Source: Candidatus Kapaibacterium sp. (GTDB lineage: Bacteria; Bacteroidota; Ignavibacteria; Kapaibacteriales; UBA2268). Taken from it: a stretch of DNA of 64,000 nucleotides. The stretch is taken from the NCBI GenBank assembly GCA_013414795.1, contig CP058732.1:186001-250000 (forward strand), written 5' to 3'. This document shows positions 30,142-42,462 of this stretch, one piece after another. The translations under genes and the position numbers were made by a program. The notes under the pieces were generated by a model. It did not search any database. It saw nothing but the letters and a program-made list of their open reading frames with translations, and was not told where the DNA came from. Every line of letters begins with the position of its first letter. Within the stretch, counting starts at the first letter, position 1.

Positions 30142-30214
30142 GCGGGAATAGCTCAGTTGGTAGAGCACAACCTTGCCAAGGTTGGGGTCGCGGGTTCGAG
30201 TCCCGTTTCCCGCT
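30142..30214 (+). tRNA. tRNA-Gly (GCC anticodon)
   Basis: Complete cloverleaf of 73 bases without encoded CCA. Acceptor arms GCGGGAA and TTCCCGC pair fully, the D arm is GCTCAGTTGGTAGAGC, the anticodon stem CAACC/GGTTG encloses TTGCCAA with anticodon GCC, and the T arm is GCGGG-TTCGAGT-CCCGT. Discriminator base T. Confidence 0.97.
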
Positions 30215-30254
30215 CAGCGGTATCCCCAACCGCTACTTCCTCGTTATGCTGCAT

Positions 30255-33640: not shown

Positions 33641-35179
33641 ATGGGTGAAATATGTGATAGCAAAATTTCAGATATAACAAAAGAGGTTTTAGTTGAAATT
33701 CTGAGTAAAAATCCAAGCCAGAGTTTAGATAAAGCTAAGTTACTTTTTAACTGTATATTCGGTAAACGTTTCGCCGATGAAATTGATAAAAATGGAATTC
33801 TTAGATATAATTCGTTAAGTGGCCCCGAGGTAAACATAAAATATTTTGGAGTGTTATATGAAAATGCACCACAAAGTGGGATTTACGAGAATTTTTCCCT
33901 GGTATTATTTCCGGATAATAAAGAAACTCCCGAAGAATTACTCTTATGTTATGGAATAGGTACAGGTGGAATTACAGACGATGCCGAATGGTTAGGCACT
34001 CCTTGGATTAAAAGAAGTATTGAGCTTCTTTTAAAACTTGTTAAAAGAGAGAATTTAAACGTTGAAAAAACCGAAATCTTCGTTAAAGATGATATAACTG
34101 ATGAATATACAGAAATTCCAGACAGCATTAAGATAAAACTTGGTAATTTTTCAAGCTACCCAAATTTGTGGAATAAATATGGCAAATATTTGCCCTCTGT
34201 TTGCGTAATAAAACCAGATGATAATGGTGTGAAAGCCTTCTTAAATCACCTACTCCTATATGCTAAGTTTAGAAATTGGCCTTTAAAAAAACAGTTTCAG
34301 GAAATTTTAGACTCCCAACTTTTCCCAAGCATAATAAGATTATGGAGATCATATCCATCCATTGACGAACTATCAACATATTTGCTGCATAGGAATTATA
34401 TAATACTACAAGGACCGCCAGGAACCGGTAAAACCTATTCAGCCAAAAGAATAGCAGAAAACCTTAAAAATAGCAGTAAAATTACCGGTTACGAAATTAT
34501 ACAGTTTCACGCATCGGTATCATATGAAGATTTTGTAGAGGGAATAAAACCCGACACAAATTCCAACCAATTGATTTTCAAAGAACACAAAGGTCCTTTA
34601 TTGGAGTGCATTAATAAAGCACAAGTTGCACAGAATGAGGGGAAAGGATATTTGCTTATAATTGATGAAATAAATAGAGGAGATTTAGCAAAAATCTTGG
34701 GAGAAGCCATATTCCTATTTGAACCAAAAGAAGAAAGATACATTAAACTAAAATCAGGAATTGAAATAAAAATGCCTCGGAATTTCTATGTAATTGGGAC
34801 AATGAATACTGCTGATCGAACAATAGCTATTTTGGATTTTGCTATTCGTAGAAGGTTTGCCTTTATTGATGTTTGGCCATCCAGAGAAGAGCTAGAGAAA
34901 ATTTTGGATGAGAAAAAAGTGGATGAAGAAACAAAGAAGTTTGCATTAAAACTTTACAATGAAATTGAAAATATATTTTACAAATACGCAACTGACGACG
35001 AATTGCATTTGCAGCCAGGGCACACTTATTTTATCGCAAATTCCAAAGATGAGCTAAAAAATAAATTAAAATATGAAATTGCTCCTCTTCTAAGAGAATA
35101 TTTAGCAGAAGGTAGACTAGCTCTCGCAAAAAATGAAATATTGGCTTTCATAAAGGAAGCTCTTGAGGAAGAAGTATGA
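33641..35179 (+). CDS. mcrB: McrB-like AAA+ motor subunit of a type IV restriction system
   Basis: 512 residues after a strong ribosome site (GGAGGTG). The C-terminal half is a McrB-type AAA+ domain: Walker A GPPGTGKT near 257-264, 'LLIIDEINRGDLAKILGE' (Walker B near 337), the McrB hallmark 'GTMNTADRTIAILDFAIRRRF', and 'GHTYFIA'. The N-terminal 230 residues are not the E. coli McrB DNA-binding domain; they include 'LLCYGIGTGGITDDAEWLG', which I cannot assign. Such motors hydrolyse nucleotide (GTP in classical McrB) and translocate DNA to activate the McrC nuclease. The stop overlaps the McrC start (ATGA). Codons are AT-rich (AGA, ATA) unlike the core genes. Confidence 0.85.
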   Translation: MGEICDSKISDITKEVLVEILSKNPSQSLDKAKLLFNCIFGKRFADEIDKNGILRYNSLSGPEVNIKYFGVLYENAPQSGIYENFSLVLFPDNKETPEELLLCYGIGTGGITDDAEWLGTPWIKRSIELLLKLVKRENLNVEKTEIFVKDDITDEYTEIPDSIKIKLGNFSSYPNLWNKYGKYLPSVCVIKPDDNGVKAFLNHLLLYAKFRNWPLKKQFQEILDSQLFPSIIRLWRSYPSIDELSTYLLHRNYIILQGPPGTGKTYSAKRIAENLKNSSKITGYEIIQFHASVSYEDFVEGIKPDTNSNQLIFKEHKGPLLECINKAQVAQNEGKGYLLIIDEINRGDLAKILGEAIFLFEPKEERYIKLKSGIEIKMPRNFYVIGTMNTADRTIAILDFAIRRRFAFIDVWPSREELEKILDEKKVDEETKKFALKLYNEIENIFYKYATDDELHLQPGHTYFIANSKDELKNKLKYEIAPLLREYLAEGRLALAKNEILAFIKEALEEEV

Positions 35180-36561
35180 ATGTAAAAATTTCACTTGTTG
35201 AATTTGATGAAGGAACTGCCTTTTCAGTAGAAAAGTTAAAAGACTGGTTCCCAAAAGGAAAATTTGATAAAAAATTTCCACAGGAATATATATTTAAATG
35301 GTTGCGTGTAAATAGTAGATACTTGGAATTTCTAGGTGTATCTTGTAAGTGGGATGAAAACAACAAAAAATTGATACTTACACCAAGTAATAAGATAGGG
35401 GTAGTTCCTCTAAAAAATCCTTATGGTGGTCAAGTATATGGAAGTATAACTGTAAAACCTAAATTAGGTTGGGTAGATATTTACGAAATATTGGATCTTA
35501 TTGATTGGAAGTATCAGCCGTTTTTTTTAAAAAACGAAGAGCCTATCTTCGCTAACGGTGTTCTGCCTAGATGGTTTAAAGCAGTTGAAACTTTAGAGGC
35601 AATTTATCAAGCTCTAAGCTTACTTATGAAAAGGATATGTAGTAAGCATATATTTTCCAAAGTCCCCATTGGCAACGTAAACTGGAACGATTATGGAACA
35701 AAGAGCGTTCCTTATGGTAAATATAACTATTTTTCCACTACTGTAATTGATTATTCTTTCGATTTGGAAGTTCACCACCAATTTAAAGGTGTTGTAAAAA
35801 TTGTAGAGAAAGATATTTCAAATCCTGAAGTTCCTATTAAAATAAGAAGTAAATCAAGAGTACTTATGTCAAAAATAGAAAGATGGCTTGTCACTTTGAA
35901 TTGCGACGAACCGAGCGTTGAAAAGCTCAAGAAAATAAGCGTGCCTAGTTTTTACAAGTTGTATTATGATAGAGCCATACAAAAATGCATAGAATATATC
36001 GGTGAAAGCAAATTTTCAAATGAAGCTGGTAAATTTTATGGATTGCCTTGGGCAATTGAAATGGACAAATTATTTGAACACTGGGTAGAATTTTGGGCCT
36101 CTAAATTTGCCCTTAGGATAGGAGCAAGATTTTTCTCGGATATTAAAAATAACTCTAGAATTAGATTTTATAATTTGGGAAATTGGAAGAGTATGAATAA
36201 ATTGAAACCAGACATAATTATTGAAAAAGAAGATAAAACATTAATAATAGATGTTAAATACAAAAAGCATTTAGAATATATTCAATATGGTATGGCAACG
36301 TCTGAAATTCTTGAAGAACACCGACATGACATCCATCAAATTTTATCCTATATGAGTAGTTCGGTTAAAAGGAAAAGGCTAGGATGTTTGATTTATCCAA
36401 AAATTAATGATACAATAGTAAACCAATATTCTACTTTGATCAATTATACAAACGTTAGAGCATATGTGGATATAGCATTATGTGGTATAAATTTTGACTA
36501 TAAAACTGTGTTAAGCTTACTGGATTATTTATGGTGTGAAAAATATGCTTCTTTCCAATAA
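35176..36561 (+). CDS. mcrC: McrC-like nuclease subunit
   Basis: 461 residues. The N-terminal part resembles the McrC domain that contacts the McrB hexamer. The C-terminal part has the PD-(D/E)xK site: Asp near 345 in 'LKPDIIIEKEDKTLIIDVKYK', with the D-x-K pair near 358-360. 'HRHDIHQILSYM' follows, as in McrC and related nucleases. It would cut DNA when recruited by the McrB-like motor. A four-base overlap with the upstream gene shows co-translation. 91 bases separate it from the next gene, including a 12-base palindrome CCTCTGCAGAGG at 36599-36610. Confidence 0.85.
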   Translation: MNVKISLVEFDEGTAFSVEKLKDWFPKGKFDKKFPQEYIFKWLRVNSRYLEFLGVSCKWDENNKKLILTPSNKIGVVPLKNPYGGQVYGSITVKPKLGWVDIYEILDLIDWKYQPFFLKNEEPIFANGVLPRWFKAVETLEAIYQALSLLMKRICSKHIFSKVPIGNVNWNDYGTKSVPYGKYNYFSTTVIDYSFDLEVHHQFKGVVKIVEKDISNPEVPIKIRSKSRVLMSKIERWLVTLNCDEPSVEKLKKISVPSFYKLYYDRAIQKCIEYIGESKFSNEAGKFYGLPWAIEMDKLFEHWVEFWASKFALRIGARFFSDIKNNSRIRFYNLGNWKSMNKLKPDIIIEKEDKTLIIDVKYKKHLEYIQYGMATSEILEEHRHDIHQILSYMSSSVKRKRLGCLIYPKINDTIVNQYSTLINYTNVRAYVDIALCGINFDYKTVLSLLDYLWCEKYASFQ

Positions 36562-36652: not shown

Positions 36653-37780
36653 ATGAATGAAGAGATTTTAAAACAACGAATAATTGAATCATTAGAACTA
36701 CAAGGCTTTAAAATAAACCCGCATATAAGACCCTCCGATTTCACCAAAGAGACATTTCGCCATATTCAAAGTATAGCGAAGCTGGAACAGCTTGCACTTC
36801 GTAAAAGATTCCTCCAAGATTATTTAAACGTTGTAAAAGAATATTACAAAGACGGTAAAGATATTGACCCAGCTAATATCTCTTTAGAATTAAAAGAAAT
36901 AGAAACAGGGACTTTCGAAGAAATACTATTTAGATGGTGGAATCTAATTTGGTGGAGTATTCCATATCAACGTTCTTATGGAAGACAAATGAGATTTCTA
37001 TTATGGGATACAACTCATAATTTACCTTTTGGACTATTGTTACTTCAAAGTCCGGTGCTTAAAATAAGCGTAAGAGATAAATTTCTGGAGATTCCAAAAG
37101 AAGAACTGGATTTTTGGATAAATAAATCAATGAATGCTCAAAGGGTTGGAGCCTTACCACCATATAATGAAATTTTAGGTGGTAAAATGGTTGCTCTTGC
37201 TTTAACTTCAAATGAGATTAGAGAAAATTATAGAAAAAAATACAATTCTTCCAGGACCCTCATTAAAGGAAGAACCATTAAACCTGACTTATTATTTATT
37301 ACTACCACAAGTGCTTTCGGGAAAAGTAGTTTATATAATCGTCTAAAATATAATGGAGAAATCGTAGCATTAAGTTTGGGATATACTAAAGGAACTGGAA
37401 CTTTTCATATCCCAGAAAAACTTTATATTGAAATACTCAGTTTCCTCTCTGCAAAAGGGATTGATACCTCCCGAGGGTATGGTCACGGACCTTCCCGAAA
37501 GCTTAAACTCATTAGTCTTGCTTTCAAACTTCTTGGGTTGCCTAGATTTGAATATCACGGTATACAAAGAGAATTCTATCTATTTCCGCTTGTCAAAAAT
37601 TTGAAAGATGTGATTAAAAGAAAAGAAAACCCGATTTATATTGATCGCCCGTTTAACAATCTTGTCGATTATTGGAAAGAACGTTGGGCAATTCCACGTG
37701 CGGAGCGTAAGCCTGAGTGGAAAAAATTTCAGGCAAAAAAGTTTTTTGAAAAGGTTGAAAAAATCATAAAGGAGTTATAA
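36653..37780 (+). CDS. DruA-like protein (DUF4338)
   Basis: 375 residues. The central and C-terminal parts carry the DUF4338 pattern of DruA from type I Druantia: 'FLLWDTTHNLPFGLLLLQSP', 'MNAQRVGALPPYNEILGGKMVALAL', 'TTTSAFGKSSLYNRLKY', 'LSLGYTKGTGTFH', 'SRGYGHGPSRKLKLI' and 'HGIQREFYLFPLVKN'. Function at the molecular level is not established. No DruB, DruC, DruD or the large helicase DruE is nearby; instead the gene is followed three bases later by a NurA-like gene. Start taken at 36653, where a weak GAAG precedes; no alternative ATG is close. Confidence 0.85.
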   Translation: MNEEILKQRIIESLELQGFKINPHIRPSDFTKETFRHIQSIAKLEQLALRKRFLQDYLNVVKEYYKDGKDIDPANISLELKEIETGTFEEILFRWWNLIWWSIPYQRSYGRQMRFLLWDTTHNLPFGLLLLQSPVLKISVRDKFLEIPKEELDFWINKSMNAQRVGALPPYNEILGGKMVALALTSNEIRENYRKKYNSSRTLIKGRTIKPDLLFITTTSAFGKSSLYNRLKYNGEIVALSLGYTKGTGTFHIPEKLYIEILSFLSAKGIDTSRGYGHGPSRKLKLISLAFKLLGLPRFEYHGIQREFYLFPLVKNLKDVIKRKENPIYIDRPFNNLVDYWKERWAIPRAERKPEWKKFQAKKFFEKVEKIIKEL

Positions 37781-37783
37781 AAC

Positions 37784-38932
37784 TTGGAAAAAGTTGAACA
37801 AACTTTTGTAGAACTACCGGAAGCTTTAGTAGAGGAAATGCTTTCTAAAAGTGAAGAGATAGGAAACTCCCTTTATGAATCTTTTAAAGAAATAGAAAAA
37901 AGAAAAGAGGATTTGAGAAAACAATTAGTAAACAAGGGAATTTTAAAAAGAGATGCTGATTTAGGTTATCCGCCCATGCCAACTACCTGCGGAGTGGATG
38001 GCTCCTATGTGGTGGAAAAGCTTTTAGCTATTGATTTTGTTACTTGTGCTGCAGTAGCAATAGAAGGATTAACTCCCCCCTCTGAAAAAAGATACTGGGA
38101 GAAACCTCATCATAGAGTACTCATACATCCGGAGAAACATGATCCGGATACAGGCACGATTATTAGAGGTGTGATGATGGAGATGGAATTTGAACTTGCA
38201 GCAAGAGCCCCTCACGATATAGTCTTTTTAGACGGCTCTCTTACAACGCCATTGATATACTTGAACCAAGCAATAAACAAAATATTGGAGTGGGAAAATG
38301 ACAACATCCAAACCGAGTTTGGTAAAAAACTAAAAGAGAGGTTTAGACAATTCCTTGAGGACTATAAAACTATTTTAGAATCTTCAAGAACAGACAAATT
38401 ATGGGTGAGTTTGCCAAAATATACTACAAGGAGAGAATTGGGCAAAATGTTTAGCTGGTCCTCCAATTATGATGACCGTGCAGTTTTAACTGCTATTTTA
38501 TCCCCAGGTGAATATACTATACCAATTCCATTAGAAAAACCTCAACAACCCTGGCACTTAAAACTTCCCTTTGAAGGCAAGGAACTTGAAAGATTAAAAG
38601 ATGAAGTTATTTCTGGCATAAATAATCTTTTTGTTATGTATTATAAACCATATAATTGGACGCCAGTTTTTAGAATTGAGATGTCCTCTTCTATTGCCAA
38701 TAATAATTCTCGCATAGCAATACTACTTCAAGGTCTTAAATATCAATCTGGAACACCAGGGATTATGGAACCATATCCTCTTTACATAGCAGACCGAATG
38801 GTAAAGCATCTTGGGAGCGCTGTTCCTGCCTTGCGACAAACAGCTACCAGGAAAATGGCCGAATTACATCAAGGTGACATAGGAGAGATATTTTTTAGTA
38901 TGCATAGTTATAGAACTGAAAGCGGGAGGTGA
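37784..38932 (+). CDS. NurA-like nuclease
   Basis: 382 residues. The TTG start at 37784 is chosen because AAAGGAG sits ten bases upstream at the end of the DruA-like gene; the first ATG is 17 codons later. NurA-fold acidic residues are visible: Asp72 in 'TCGVDGSYVVEK', Asp150 in 'IVFLDGSLTTP', and a late Asp in 'YPLYIADRMVKHLG' near 335. NurA is a 5'-3' exonuclease and endonuclease that works inside a HerA hexamer to resect DNA ends in archaea. A HerA-like gene is the fourth member of this operon, so a HerA-NurA machine is likely here too. Three bases separate it from the next gene. Confidence 0.8.
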   Translation: MEKVEQTFVELPEALVEEMLSKSEEIGNSLYESFKEIEKRKEDLRKQLVNKGILKRDADLGYPPMPTTCGVDGSYVVEKLLAIDFVTCAAVAIEGLTPPSEKRYWEKPHHRVLIHPEKHDPDTGTIIRGVMMEMEFELAARAPHDIVFLDGSLTTPLIYLNQAINKILEWENDNIQTEFGKKLKERFRQFLEDYKTILESSRTDKLWVSLPKYTTRRELGKMFSWSSNYDDRAVLTAILSPGEYTIPIPLEKPQQPWHLKLPFEGKELERLKDEVISGINNLFVMYYKPYNWTPVFRIEMSSSIANNNSRIAILLQGLKYQSGTPGIMEPYPLYIADRMVKHLGSAVPALRQTATRKMAELHQGDIGEIFFSMHSYRTESGR

Positions 38933-38935
38933 GTT

Positions 38936-40708
38936 ATGAAAGCAGATGCAAAAGGTTTGAAATTTTTAAGCATGGAAGGTAAGGTGAAAATACCTTTCTT
39001 CCAGAGAACTTATGTATGGAATGAGGAGAATTGGGAGGATCTTTTGAATGAACTTCTTAGAGAAGACAAAAAAAATAATTTCCTGGGAGCAATTATCTTA
39101 AAACAGCTTCCCAAAATCTCTGGCGAGCCATCTCAGCTTGAGGTCATTGACGGTCAACAACGATTGACTACATTAAGTATTTTATTAAAAGCTTTATATG
39201 ACACTTTTTCTGACGAAGAAACTAAGAGAAATTGTGAGAGTGATATTAAGAGTATTTTGCGATATAGAAAGGATTATACTTCTTCTAATTATGAGGTTAG
39301 AATAGAACATTCTCGTGCAGATTCTGAAGCCTATGGAAAAGTTATTGAGGATACTTTAAATATAGACCAAATCAATGAAGATAGTCATTTGATCTTACGA
39401 TGTTATAAGTATTTCTTTCAGAAATTAGAAAACATGGGTGAAAGCAAAAGAAAAGAACTCTTAAATAGAATTCTAAATCCAGAAAACAAGATGCTGGTAG
39501 TAATTGATCTGGATGAAAAAGATGACGAACAGGAAATTTTTGATACCCTTAACACAGCTGGAGTAAGGTTAACTATTGCTGAAATAGTAAAAAACGCTAT
39601 TTTCAAAAGAGCTATTGAATTAAGTAATAAAGATGAAACTATAAGACTTTATCACGATACTTGGCAAAAAACTTTTTTAAATGATGAGGAAACAATAAAA
39701 TACTGGGAAACTGAAATGGCAACAGGTAGATTAAAGCGAGACAACATTGAGATTTTACTTCATTGTATAGGGGTGATAAAAGGATTTTATGATCCTGATA
39801 AACACACTTTGTCTGAACTTTCAAAATTATATAAGGAGCAACTTAGAACCATTGATTCAATGGATAAGTTAAAATGGTTTATTAATGAAATAATTGAATA
39901 TGCTAAAATCTACAGAGAAAAAATTGTCTCTTTTGATAAAAGTGATTCGTTATCTTTTGGTGATTCTATTGATAGATTGTTACATATTCTTCAAGAATTA
40001 GAGATTTCTACATTTCATCCATTTCTTCTTTTCGTGCTTAAAAATTATCAAAATGAAAATGATAAAATTACGGAAATTTTAAACAAATTAGAAAAGTTTA
40101 TCATAAGAAATATGCTGGCGAAAATTGAAAATGTTAAAAACTATAACAAAATTTGTAAACAATTTATTGCAGACATATTTCATCTGGATAATAAGTTAAG
40201 AGAAATCTCGTGGGATAGGAGCAAAAGTGGTTTGCAAAATATTTCTAATAGAGACGCTGCATTGATATTATTCTGGATAGAACTATCCCGTAGAGATAAA
40301 GATAATAGATACGATGAAAAAGAATTGAAATATGACTACACACTTGAACATATAATGCCTATAAAGTGGGAAGAATACTGGAATTTTGACCATGTTCCAC
40401 ATCCTAATAGTACTCTATCACCTGAGGAACAAAGAGAAGATAGGAATAAGAAGATCTTCTGGTTAGGTAATATGACGCTCCTCAAATCAAAACTAAATAC
40501 AGCATTAAGGAACCAAAGTTTTGGAAAGAAAATAAATGGGGAAGGGAAGAAAAAGGGAATTAGACATTATGCTACACTTTCTATTACTAAAGAGGATATA
40601 GTTGCACTATACGATAAAGGCGACACAATTTGGAATGAAGAAAAAATAGAAAATAGAACAAAAAGACTTGAGGAAGAAATAAAAAAGATATGGGGAGATG
40701 AGTTATGA
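38936..40708 (+). CDS. GmrSD-like type IV restriction protein (DUF262 + DUF1524)
   Basis: 590 residues in a single chain. The DUF262 part has 'IPFFQRTYVW', 'EVIDGQQRLTTLSILLKAL' (Asp72, the ParB-like nucleotide-hydrolysis motif) and 'FDTLNTAGVRLTIAEIVKNAIF'. The DUF1524 part is an HNH nuclease: 'YTLEHIMPIKW' near 470 and 'FWLGNMTLLKSKLN'. All key residues are present, so it should be active. GmrSD cuts DNA with glucosylated hydroxymethylcytosine, and relatives (SspE, BrxU) act with other modification signals. It overlaps the HerA-like gene by four bases. Confidence 0.88.
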   Translation: MKADAKGLKFLSMEGKVKIPFFQRTYVWNEENWEDLLNELLREDKKNNFLGAIILKQLPKISGEPSQLEVIDGQQRLTTLSILLKALYDTFSDEETKRNCESDIKSILRYRKDYTSSNYEVRIEHSRADSEAYGKVIEDTLNIDQINEDSHLILRCYKYFFQKLENMGESKRKELLNRILNPENKMLVVIDLDEKDDEQEIFDTLNTAGVRLTIAEIVKNAIFKRAIELSNKDETIRLYHDTWQKTFLNDEETIKYWETEMATGRLKRDNIEILLHCIGVIKGFYDPDKHTLSELSKLYKEQLRTIDSMDKLKWFINEIIEYAKIYREKIVSFDKSDSLSFGDSIDRLLHILQELEISTFHPFLLFVLKNYQNENDKITEILNKLEKFIIRNMLAKIENVKNYNKICKQFIADIFHLDNKLREISWDRSKSGLQNISNRDAALILFWIELSRRDKDNRYDEKELKYDYTLEHIMPIKWEEYWNFDHVPHPNSTLSPEEQREDRNKKIFWLGNMTLLKSKLNTALRNQSFGKKINGEGKKKGIRHYATLSITKEDIVALYDKGDTIWNEEKIENRTKRLEEEIKKIWGDEL

Positions 40709-42462
40709 GCGATGAAAGAACAAATAGAACAAATATTGAGCAACTAATCAGCACCTCTGAGCGAATCGGGGCAATAGGTTCTCCTTCTTCTACCAGTGAA
40801 CTTTCATTAGATATTCTTGAAACTGCTGTTAAGAAAAAATTAGTAGGTGAACTTGCTCTTTTTAAATTCATTCAGGATGACAAACCTCATTATGCATTAG
40901 GACAAATAACAGAGGTTCAACTAAGAAATATTTGGCTTGAAGACCCAACAATGAGGTCTCTTGCAAGGCAAAGAGGTCAAGTAAATCCTGTAAGTGGACA
41001 GCAAGACACTCACCTTGGAGTTATGACAGTAAGTGCAGTATTTAGTGACGACGGTCATAGATTTGAACCAAGTATTTTAGGAACTGTTCCAGCAACAGGC
41101 ACTTTTATTCATTTAGCAAATGACTTAATATTAGATAGGCTATTGGAAAGGTATAGGGATGAAATATTTTATCTGGGACATGTCTATGGATCTACTCCAA
41201 GATTGCCAATGTGGTTTAAACATTTCGGAACTGGACCACATGGAGCTGGTGAAGCCTATCATATTGGGATCTTTGGTAAAACAGGTTCTGGAAAATCAGT
41301 GTTGGCGAAAATGATTCTTCTTGCCTATGCAAGATATATAAATATGGCAATATTTGTGATAGATCCTCAAGGTGAATTCAGTAAGGATGCAAGAGGGGTC
41401 TTAGGAACTGAAGGTTTTCCTTTGAATTTAAAAGAATTACTCTCTTCCTTAGGTAAAAAAGTATTAATCAAAGGTGTGAGAGAATTGATATTAGATAGAT
41501 GGAGTTTATTTAGTGAAATACTATATGAATCACTTTTTTTTGAGAGATTAACGATTCCTAAAGGAGAAAATAGAAGAATTGCTTCCGAAGTTTTAGCAGA
41601 AAGGCTACAAAAGGCGGGAATTAAATTAGAAAACTTACATAGCCGAGATTCATTCAATCGAGCCTGGTATTTACTTGGTGATGAGAACGTTCAAAAACAA
41701 TTTTATAGAAGCGAACAATCACGGGAAAGATTTAAAACAGTTTACAAGGAAGCAGACCAAAATGAATTTTTTTATAAATATTGGAACCCAGTTACTCAAT
41801 TATTTAGAAGAGACCGCCAACATGCAATAATTATTGATGAATTAATTAAACAAACTTTGGATATTTCTTCCACTGAGAGACCCGTTGTAATCATTGATTT
41901 GTCAAGGGAAATGGCATCAGACTTATTCTGGAACGACACAATTCAAGCATTAGTTATAAAAAGATTATTAGATGGATTAACATATTCCGCTGAAAAAGCC
42001 TACAGAGAGAATAGATCCTTAAACACACTTGTTATTTTAGATGAAGCACACAGATTAGCTCCCCGTGAAAAAATGGAAAATGATAACCAGGAAAGTGTAA
42101 AAGCCTCTTTACTCGATGCTGTTCGAACTACAAGAAAATACGGTCTTGGTTGGATGTTCATAAGTCAAACTTTATCAAGTTTACACAAAGAGATTATTGG
42201 TCAATTGAGAATTTTCTTCTTTGGTTTTGGTCTGGCTTTGGGAACAGAATTACAGGCACTAAAAGAAATTGTTGGTGGAGACCTTAATTCACTAAAATTG
42301 TATCAATCTTTCCGTGATCCTCATAGTTCTTTCGATGCCTCATCTCGTCAATACTCTTTTATGACAATAGGACCAATTTCCCCTCTCTCTTTCGCTGGTA
42401 CCCCGCTCTTTTTAACTGCATTCAATACACCTGATGATTTTTTAAAGGCGAATAATACTTAA
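40705..42462 (+). CDS. HerA-like DNA-translocating ATPase
   Basis: 585 residues. The N-terminus looks like a HAS-barrel (about 20-110), followed by a HerA/FtsK-type RecA core: Walker A GKTGSGKS near 190-197, 'IFVIDPQGEFSKD', a helical insertion, Walker B 'LVILDEAHRLAP' near 441-452, and the sensor 'GWMFISQTLSSL'. HerA forms a hexameric ring that translocates on duplex DNA and docks NurA. Start overlaps the GmrSD-like stop by four bases. This is the last gene of the operon; no terminator hairpin is seen. Confidence 0.87.
   Translation: MSDERTNRTNIEQLISTSERIGAIGSPSSTSELSLDILETAVKKKLVGELALFKFIQDDKPHYALGQITEVQLRNIWLEDPTMRSLARQRGQVNPVSGQQDTHLGVMTVSAVFSDDGHRFEPSILGTVPATGTFIHLANDLILDRLLERYRDEIFYLGHVYGSTPRLPMWFKHFGTGPHGAGEAYHIGIFGKTGSGKSVLAKMILLAYARYINMAIFVIDPQGEFSKDARGVLGTEGFPLNLKELLSSLGKKVLIKGVRELILDRWSLFSEILYESLFFERLTIPKGENRRIASEVLAERLQKAGIKLENLHSRDSFNRAWYLLGDENVQKQFYRSEQSRERFKTVYKEADQNEFFYKYWNPVTQLFRRDRQHAIIIDELIKQTLDISSTERPVVIIDLSREMASDLFWNDTIQALVIKRLLDGLTYSAEKAYRENRSLNTLVILDEAHRLAPREKMENDNQESVKASLLDAVRTTRKYGLGWMFISQTLSSLHKEIIGQLRIFFFGFGLALGTELQALKEIVGGDLNSLKLYQSFRDPHSSFDASSRQYSFMTIGPISPLSFAGTPLFLTAFNTPDDFLKANNT

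Follow-up and report, generated by a model that had tools for sequence, protein, structure and literature searches.

A three-gene DruA-NurA-HerA operon as a candidate DNA-restriction module, with a GmrSD-like gene carried in its midst

Genes packed end to end on one strand are readily taken for parts of a single machine, and the operon considered here, in a genome of Candidatus Kapaibacterium sp., raises the question of how far that reasoning can be trusted. Its four genes are predicted to encode a DruA-like protein, a NurA-like nuclease, a GmrSD-like protein and a HerA-like translocase homologue, a combination that the original prediction took to be one defence system whose tight spacing suggested obligate stoichiometry. 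Which of these genes form a unit, what that unit might do, and what DruA, shared with a known antiphage system, contributes to it are the questions taken up below, with the window (the whole stretch of 64,000 nucleotides analysed) as the starting point and homologous loci from cellular genomes and viral contigs as the material for comparison.

Layout of the operon and its neighbourhood

The four open reading frames are indeed co-directional, and their coordinates bear out gaps of 3, 3 and -4 bases (Table 1). What the original prediction overlooked is a pair of McrB-like and McrC-like genes that ends 91 bases 5′ of DruA on the same strand, and the low GC content around these genes: between 34 and 44 kb it is 33-34%, whereas most of the remaining window has 37-42%. 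A tRNA-Gly gene lies at 30142-30215, 5′ of the McrB-like/McrC-like pair, and the genes 3′ of HerA encode thioredoxin, NifX-like and FmdE proteins. The window's HerA was found in 1 of 395 genomes of its phylum, namely the window's own, which has one NurA, and this patchy occurrence, together with the low GC, fits a recent horizontal arrival of the locus. McrBC was considered as a further part of the system and rejected, homologues of McrB and McrC being absent from the triad loci of other genomes.

Table 1. Genes of the operon and of the adjoining upstream pair, with positions in the window.
Feature	Position	Strand	Remarks
DruA-like protein (PF14236)	36653..37780	+	375 aa; core gene of triad
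NurA-like nuclease	37784..38932	+	382 aa, TTG start; core gene of triad
GmrSD-like DUF262/DUF1524 protein	38936..40708	+	590 aa; cargo between NurA and HerA, outside conserved core
HerA-like hexameric-translocase homologue	40705..42462	+	585 aa; core gene of triad
McrB-like AAA protein	33641..35179	+	neighbour in low-GC stretch; outside triad
McrC-like protein	35176..36561	+	neighbour in low-GC stretch; outside triad

Profile searches agree with these names: DruA matches its Pfam family at 4.4e-68, NurA matches its own over the full domain length (1.7e-11), the GmrSD-like protein carries GmrSD_N (5.5e-34) and GmrSD_C (3.7e-13) on a single polypeptide, and the central domain of HerA matches DUF87 (4.5e-15). 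The expectation that all four proteins have intact catalytic motifs held for three of them. In NurA the acidic residues D72, E135, D150 and D337 are invariant among 32 homologues; HerA has a Walker A motif, GKTGSGKS, at 191-198 and a Walker B motif, ILDEAHR (D446/E447), both mostly invariant; and direct reading of the GmrSD-like sequence reveals DGQQRLTT and LEHIMP / WLGNMTLL. For DruA no catalytic motif is established, its invariant residues including R36, R111, R114, R141, R230, R306, W101 and W345.

A three-gene core with changing inserts

A search of 84,980 species' genomes with HerA as bait yielded 37 loci, at best-segment identities of 33-62%, and in 25 of them DruA adjoins NurA and HerA, in line with the original view that these three belong together. 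Thirty DruA-bearing loci could be read when the HerA-baited set was joined by three viral contigs and two further relatives; the order is DruA-NurA-HerA in 26, NurA-HerA-DruA in three, and in the last DruA is convergent. These triads are spread over Deinococcota, Chloroflexota, Spirochaetota, Nitrospirota, Planctomycetota, Armatimonadota, Verrucomicrobiota, Pseudomonadota, Thermodesulfobacteriota and Bacillota, as well as two archaeal lineages. The conserved unit is three genes, DruA, NurA and HerA, and not four.

That the GmrSD-like gene completes an obligate four-gene defence system has in its favour the tight spacing and the 4-base overlap of GmrSD with HerA, and is nevertheless a reading to which we give almost no credence and which we reject, since none of the 37 HerA-baited loci has GmrSD, nor do the three loci most closely related to the window's module, an outcome of the kind that the original prediction had named as refuting it. 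These relatives, which lie in another phylum and are 64-82% identical to the window's proteins in each core member, show instead that the four-gene order is not conserved and that the slots between the core genes are either empty or hold other defence-type genes. One locus (L132; DruA 64%, NurA 77%, HerA 79% identical) has the three core genes without any insert. A second (L130; 72%, 81% and 78%, respectively) leaves the NurA-HerA slot empty and has a 765-aa pentapeptide-repeat protein between DruA and NurA. In the third (L131/L139; 73%, 79% and 82%) DruA and NurA are separated by a 1054-aa Sacsin/NOV_C protein, and the NurA-HerA slot holds a ThaI restriction endonuclease and, after it, a protein with the methylase motifs TSPPY and DPFMGSG. 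It is this same slot that GmrSD occupies in the window, and that a 361-aa gene with no significant Pfam match occupies in a more distant relative (L011). GmrSD homologues were found in three other genomes among 149 relatives of the host; the ~1.5 kb read to either side of them contains no DruA, NurA or HerA. Elsewhere in the genome from which the window comes (G000:C1:314140-314376), outside the window itself, a long open frame also gave a NOV_C match.

Relatives that lack GmrSD and have other genes in the slots imply that GmrSD is cargo, and the best explanation is that GmrSD, ThaI, and the Sacsin/NOV_C and pentapeptide proteins are independent defence-type genes that landed inside the operon and were carried along. 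Where an operon can accommodate other restriction systems among its genes, close packing should not by itself be taken as the mark of one complex.

With DruA as bait, homologues appeared in 13 of 346 genomes of the phylum to which these closest relatives belong, one of them at a contig end; the 12 readable loci comprise eight triads, three loci with divergent HerA lineages and one degenerate copy. Among the divergent ones, L133 (L133:5489-9885) and L134 represent a second operon type, composed of DruA, a 387-aa protein with no significant Pfam match, and a divergent HerA-family ATPase, whereas L135 has NurA, a divergent HerA and DruA; the degenerate copy (L136) is of the L133 type. All 12 readable loci are thus DruA operons with a HerA-family ATPase or, in one case, the remnant of one, and the link to DruA exists for more than one HerA lineage. 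Distance matrices correlate at r=0.96 for NurA and HerA, and at 0.80 and 0.75 for DruA against NurA and HerA, respectively, all above 2000 permutations. On the HerA tree, linkage to DruA must have changed at least five times, from which it follows that DruA was gained or lost repeatedly, and a machine of the repair type, HerA-NurA, has repeatedly come to be linked with it.

Among the HerA loci without DruA, the four from Nitrososphaeria whose downstream side could be read have there genes for a calcineurin-like phosphoesterase and a protein of SMC/Rad50 type (the Pfam run was made on the L005 pair, of which the other three are sequence relatives); such genes usually go by the names Mre11 and Rad50, and the arrangement matches the established repair operon of archaea. 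Archaeal NurA-HerA pairs that lack DruA indicate that the nuclease itself can do without DruA. The triad could then be a DNA-end processing or recombination module serving repair or replication in hosts and phages rather than defence, in keeping with the 50-58% identity between HerA and its relatives in these Nitrososphaeria operons, which are among the closest, with the several triads that adjoin housekeeping genes (among them gyrA, PEP carboxylase and a uracil phosphoribosyltransferase), and with a viral contig (L048:2358-8944) in which DruA-NurA-HerA stands directly before a DUF669 single-stranded DNA-binding protein, a RusA resolvase and a phage helicase, that is, in a phage replication cassette. 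We nonetheless regard a repair role as improbable, for the triad is patchy both in the window's phylum and in that searched with DruA, defence-type genes lie between its core genes, and its neighbourhoods are rich in defence genes. Triad neighbours match models of type II, IIG and III restriction-modification, Old, AriA, HmaC, TmtA and PDC; enrichment of defence genes near triads is suggestive only, as the small set of comparison loci without DruA also shows BrxL/PglZ and methylase matches. The patchy distribution, the inserts and the neighbourhoods, all atypical of repair genes, favour a role of the triad in defence, which we consider probable and which the original prediction had likewise proposed.

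DruA apart from its partners

Across phyla DruA is tied to a DNA motor and a nuclease, yet on phages it is also found alone. Three filamentous-phage contigs of IMG/VR (L043, L044, L045) have DruA and a Zot-family assembly gene without NurA-HerA, and two contigs of tailed-phage type (L046, L050) likewise have DruA without NurA-HerA; the solo state is less certain for L043 and L053, whose contigs are cut at one end. Counted on starred branches, solo phage DruA entails at least four changes on the DruA tree. With starred support, the solo DruA of L046 stands beside that of triad L021 (88% identity), that of L050 beside triad L037 (71%), and that of L043 inside the window's own group, at 76% identity to triad L131; the DruA proteins of L044 and L045 group, with weak support, with the triad DruA of L008. 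DruA proteins of Druantia type I form one separate clade (95/89 support), and the window's DruA falls among those of triads. HerA had no match at 1e-10 in 50,697 phage records, so the evidence from phages is that of the IMG/VR contigs.

Several further features of phage loci were noted. A distant NurA-HerA pair occurs on a phage contig (L057:5818-12309; also L058), and after it come a methyltransferase-like gene and one for a major head protein. In L044:8028-12994 and L045:8025-12981 the solo DruA converges on a three-gene cassette (391, 378 and ~884 aa). PAPS-reductase/DUF3440 genes lie near solo DruA in L046:9959-11176 and L050:3480-5221, the latter contig also having ParB-like genes. A solo DUF4338 gene is present in Pelagibacter phage Mosig (L107:2051-3349).

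Phages that keep one component of a module, acquired from several lineages, present a pattern known for orphan methyltransferases. The resemblance suggests that DruA is protective, while an alternative from the same solo copies is that DruA alone could poison the complex.

The predicted structure of DruA bears on the same point. An AlphaFold2 model built with homologues as input (pLDDT 91) has a putative GNAT-fold core at about residues 71-333 and an N-terminal helical part, and DUF4338 has been named a GNAT-like domain in a published analysis (PMC10853773). In the VIA list the model matches GNAT proteins at Z 8-10, with Mom of phage Mu at the top (Z 9.7 over 183 residues), although rows within one Z unit count as tied and Mom is thus tied with ordinary GNATs; Foldseek alone returned no match at E<=0.001, and the DruA profile matched no relevant chain among solved structures. 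Mom is a DNA adenine modifier according to its database record. Sequence kinship between the two was rejected, as profile comparison of DruA with 12 Mom-like proteins (hhalign) gave a probability of 0.1%, so that a Mom-like chemistry for DruA is no more than a lead. The ordinary acetyltransferase family PF00583 (Acetyltransf_1) has no match at 0.001 in the whole of the window's genome and is present in 14 of 14 control genomes.

The original prediction had DruA recognise or license the target. This is possible, and the modelled GNAT fold and the solo phage copies would also fit self-protection. In its fuller form, this reading would make the triad a defence module and DruA its adaptor, a DNA-binding or licensing protein responsible for loading HerA-NurA onto the DNA of invaders or for triggering it there, the solo copies on phages being decoys or chance pick-ups. 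The many invariant arginines and aromatic residues of DruA could contact nucleic acid, and DruA also figures in Druantia type I, where HerA-NurA is lacking, and so may be a general recognition part; the repeated retention of DruA by phages without its partners, however, is not something that an adaptor role itself predicts, and we hold this version to be rather unlikely.

A proposed mechanism and its likeness to known systems

The explanation we favour, at a probability of roughly 45%, is that the triad is a restriction module in which HerA and NurA degrade DNA and DruA spares that of the cell, with GmrSD as cargo. The functional unit would be DruA-NurA-HerA, a mobile module for DNA restriction: the HerA ring would pump double-stranded DNA to NurA, NurA would degrade what is delivered, and DruA, a protein of predicted GNAT fold, would determine what escapes, most probably in that it marks self DNA or shields it in some other way, so that motor or nuclease would not act on it. 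The parts of this proposal differ in strength. Degradation of DNA by HerA-NurA is very likely, given the established biochemistry of HerA-NurA and of HerA with other effectors and the conserved motifs. Self-protection by DruA, perhaps through DNA modification, is a tentative proposal that we hold to be somewhat less likely than not. More doubtful still is the specific version in which DruA is a DNA-modifying enzyme of GNAT fold and the triad a form of restriction-modification, whose ring translocase and resection nuclease would destroy unmarked DNA, with inoviruses and tailed phages carrying orphan DruA as their antidote and with further defence systems nested in the operon. The triads beside housekeeping genes, the one in a phage replication cassette, the tied Mom score together with the lack of profile kinship to Mom, the archaeal NurA-HerA pairs without DruA and the cut ends of L043 and L053 count against the favoured explanation. 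The contrast between DruA with its partners and DruA alone on phages opens the way to a direct experiment on its role, whose answer would have consequences for Druantia type I too.

The literature within the scope searched, which took in no bioRxiv preprints and only a minority of subscription papers, names no set of DruA/DUF4338 with HerA and NurA, in agreement with the original prediction; a published name for the triad may still exist. For this set PADLOC has a model of DruA alone, and the NurA gene matches none of its models. Comparison with named systems is nonetheless instructive. With the HerA-NurA end-resection machine of archaea and Deinococcus the triad shares adjacent NurA and HerA with nuclease and Walker motifs; it differs in adding DruA, in being patchy and mobile, and in lacking Mre11-Rad50, which occur in the archaeal relatives without DruA. 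The AlphaFold2 model of HerA (pLDDT 87, homologues as input) has a predicted N-terminal barrel and ring ATPase core, for which structural matches span residues 16-585 at Z 22-26. Its best match is the ring ATPase TdpA of the TdpAB(C) systems of thermophiles (PDB 8wet, 8wfd), at Z 26.0 over 465 residues (8wet_A), which is not specific for Tdp, as other HerAs score close behind: DUF4297-HerA, SIR2-HerA, SsoHerA (Z 24.3) and TkHerA-NurA (23.7) come next, and DrHerA scores 22.4. The HerA profile also matched TdpA among solved chains (4.6e-12), whereas that of NurA matched Pyrococcus NurA as its sole hit and not TdpB, and the third protein here is one of putative GNAT fold. With regard to TdpC, the phosphorothioation enzyme, the genes scanned at 33.6-44.3 kb of the window included none recognised as being of PAPS-reductase type. 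TdpAB reportedly degrades DNA without the phosphorothioate mark made by TdpC, a logic of modifier plus motor-nuclease that is like our reading of the triad.

The antiphage systems DUF4297-HerA, an ATPase-nuclease complex with established antiphage action (PMC11291478), and SIR2-HerA likewise combine a HerA ring with a nuclease or effector; the triad has NurA in the effector's place, and DruA as an additional, third part. GmrSD type IV restriction is matched by the window's protein, with both domains on one polypeptide, which here is cargo inside a triad. Mom would share with DruA the GNAT fold and not a sequence profile. Druantia type I, finally, shares a DruA homologue with the window (PADLOC DruA model, 1e-86), but DruB-DruE, including the large DruE helicase, are absent beside DruA, whose neighbours are instead McrBC, NurA, GmrSD and HerA.
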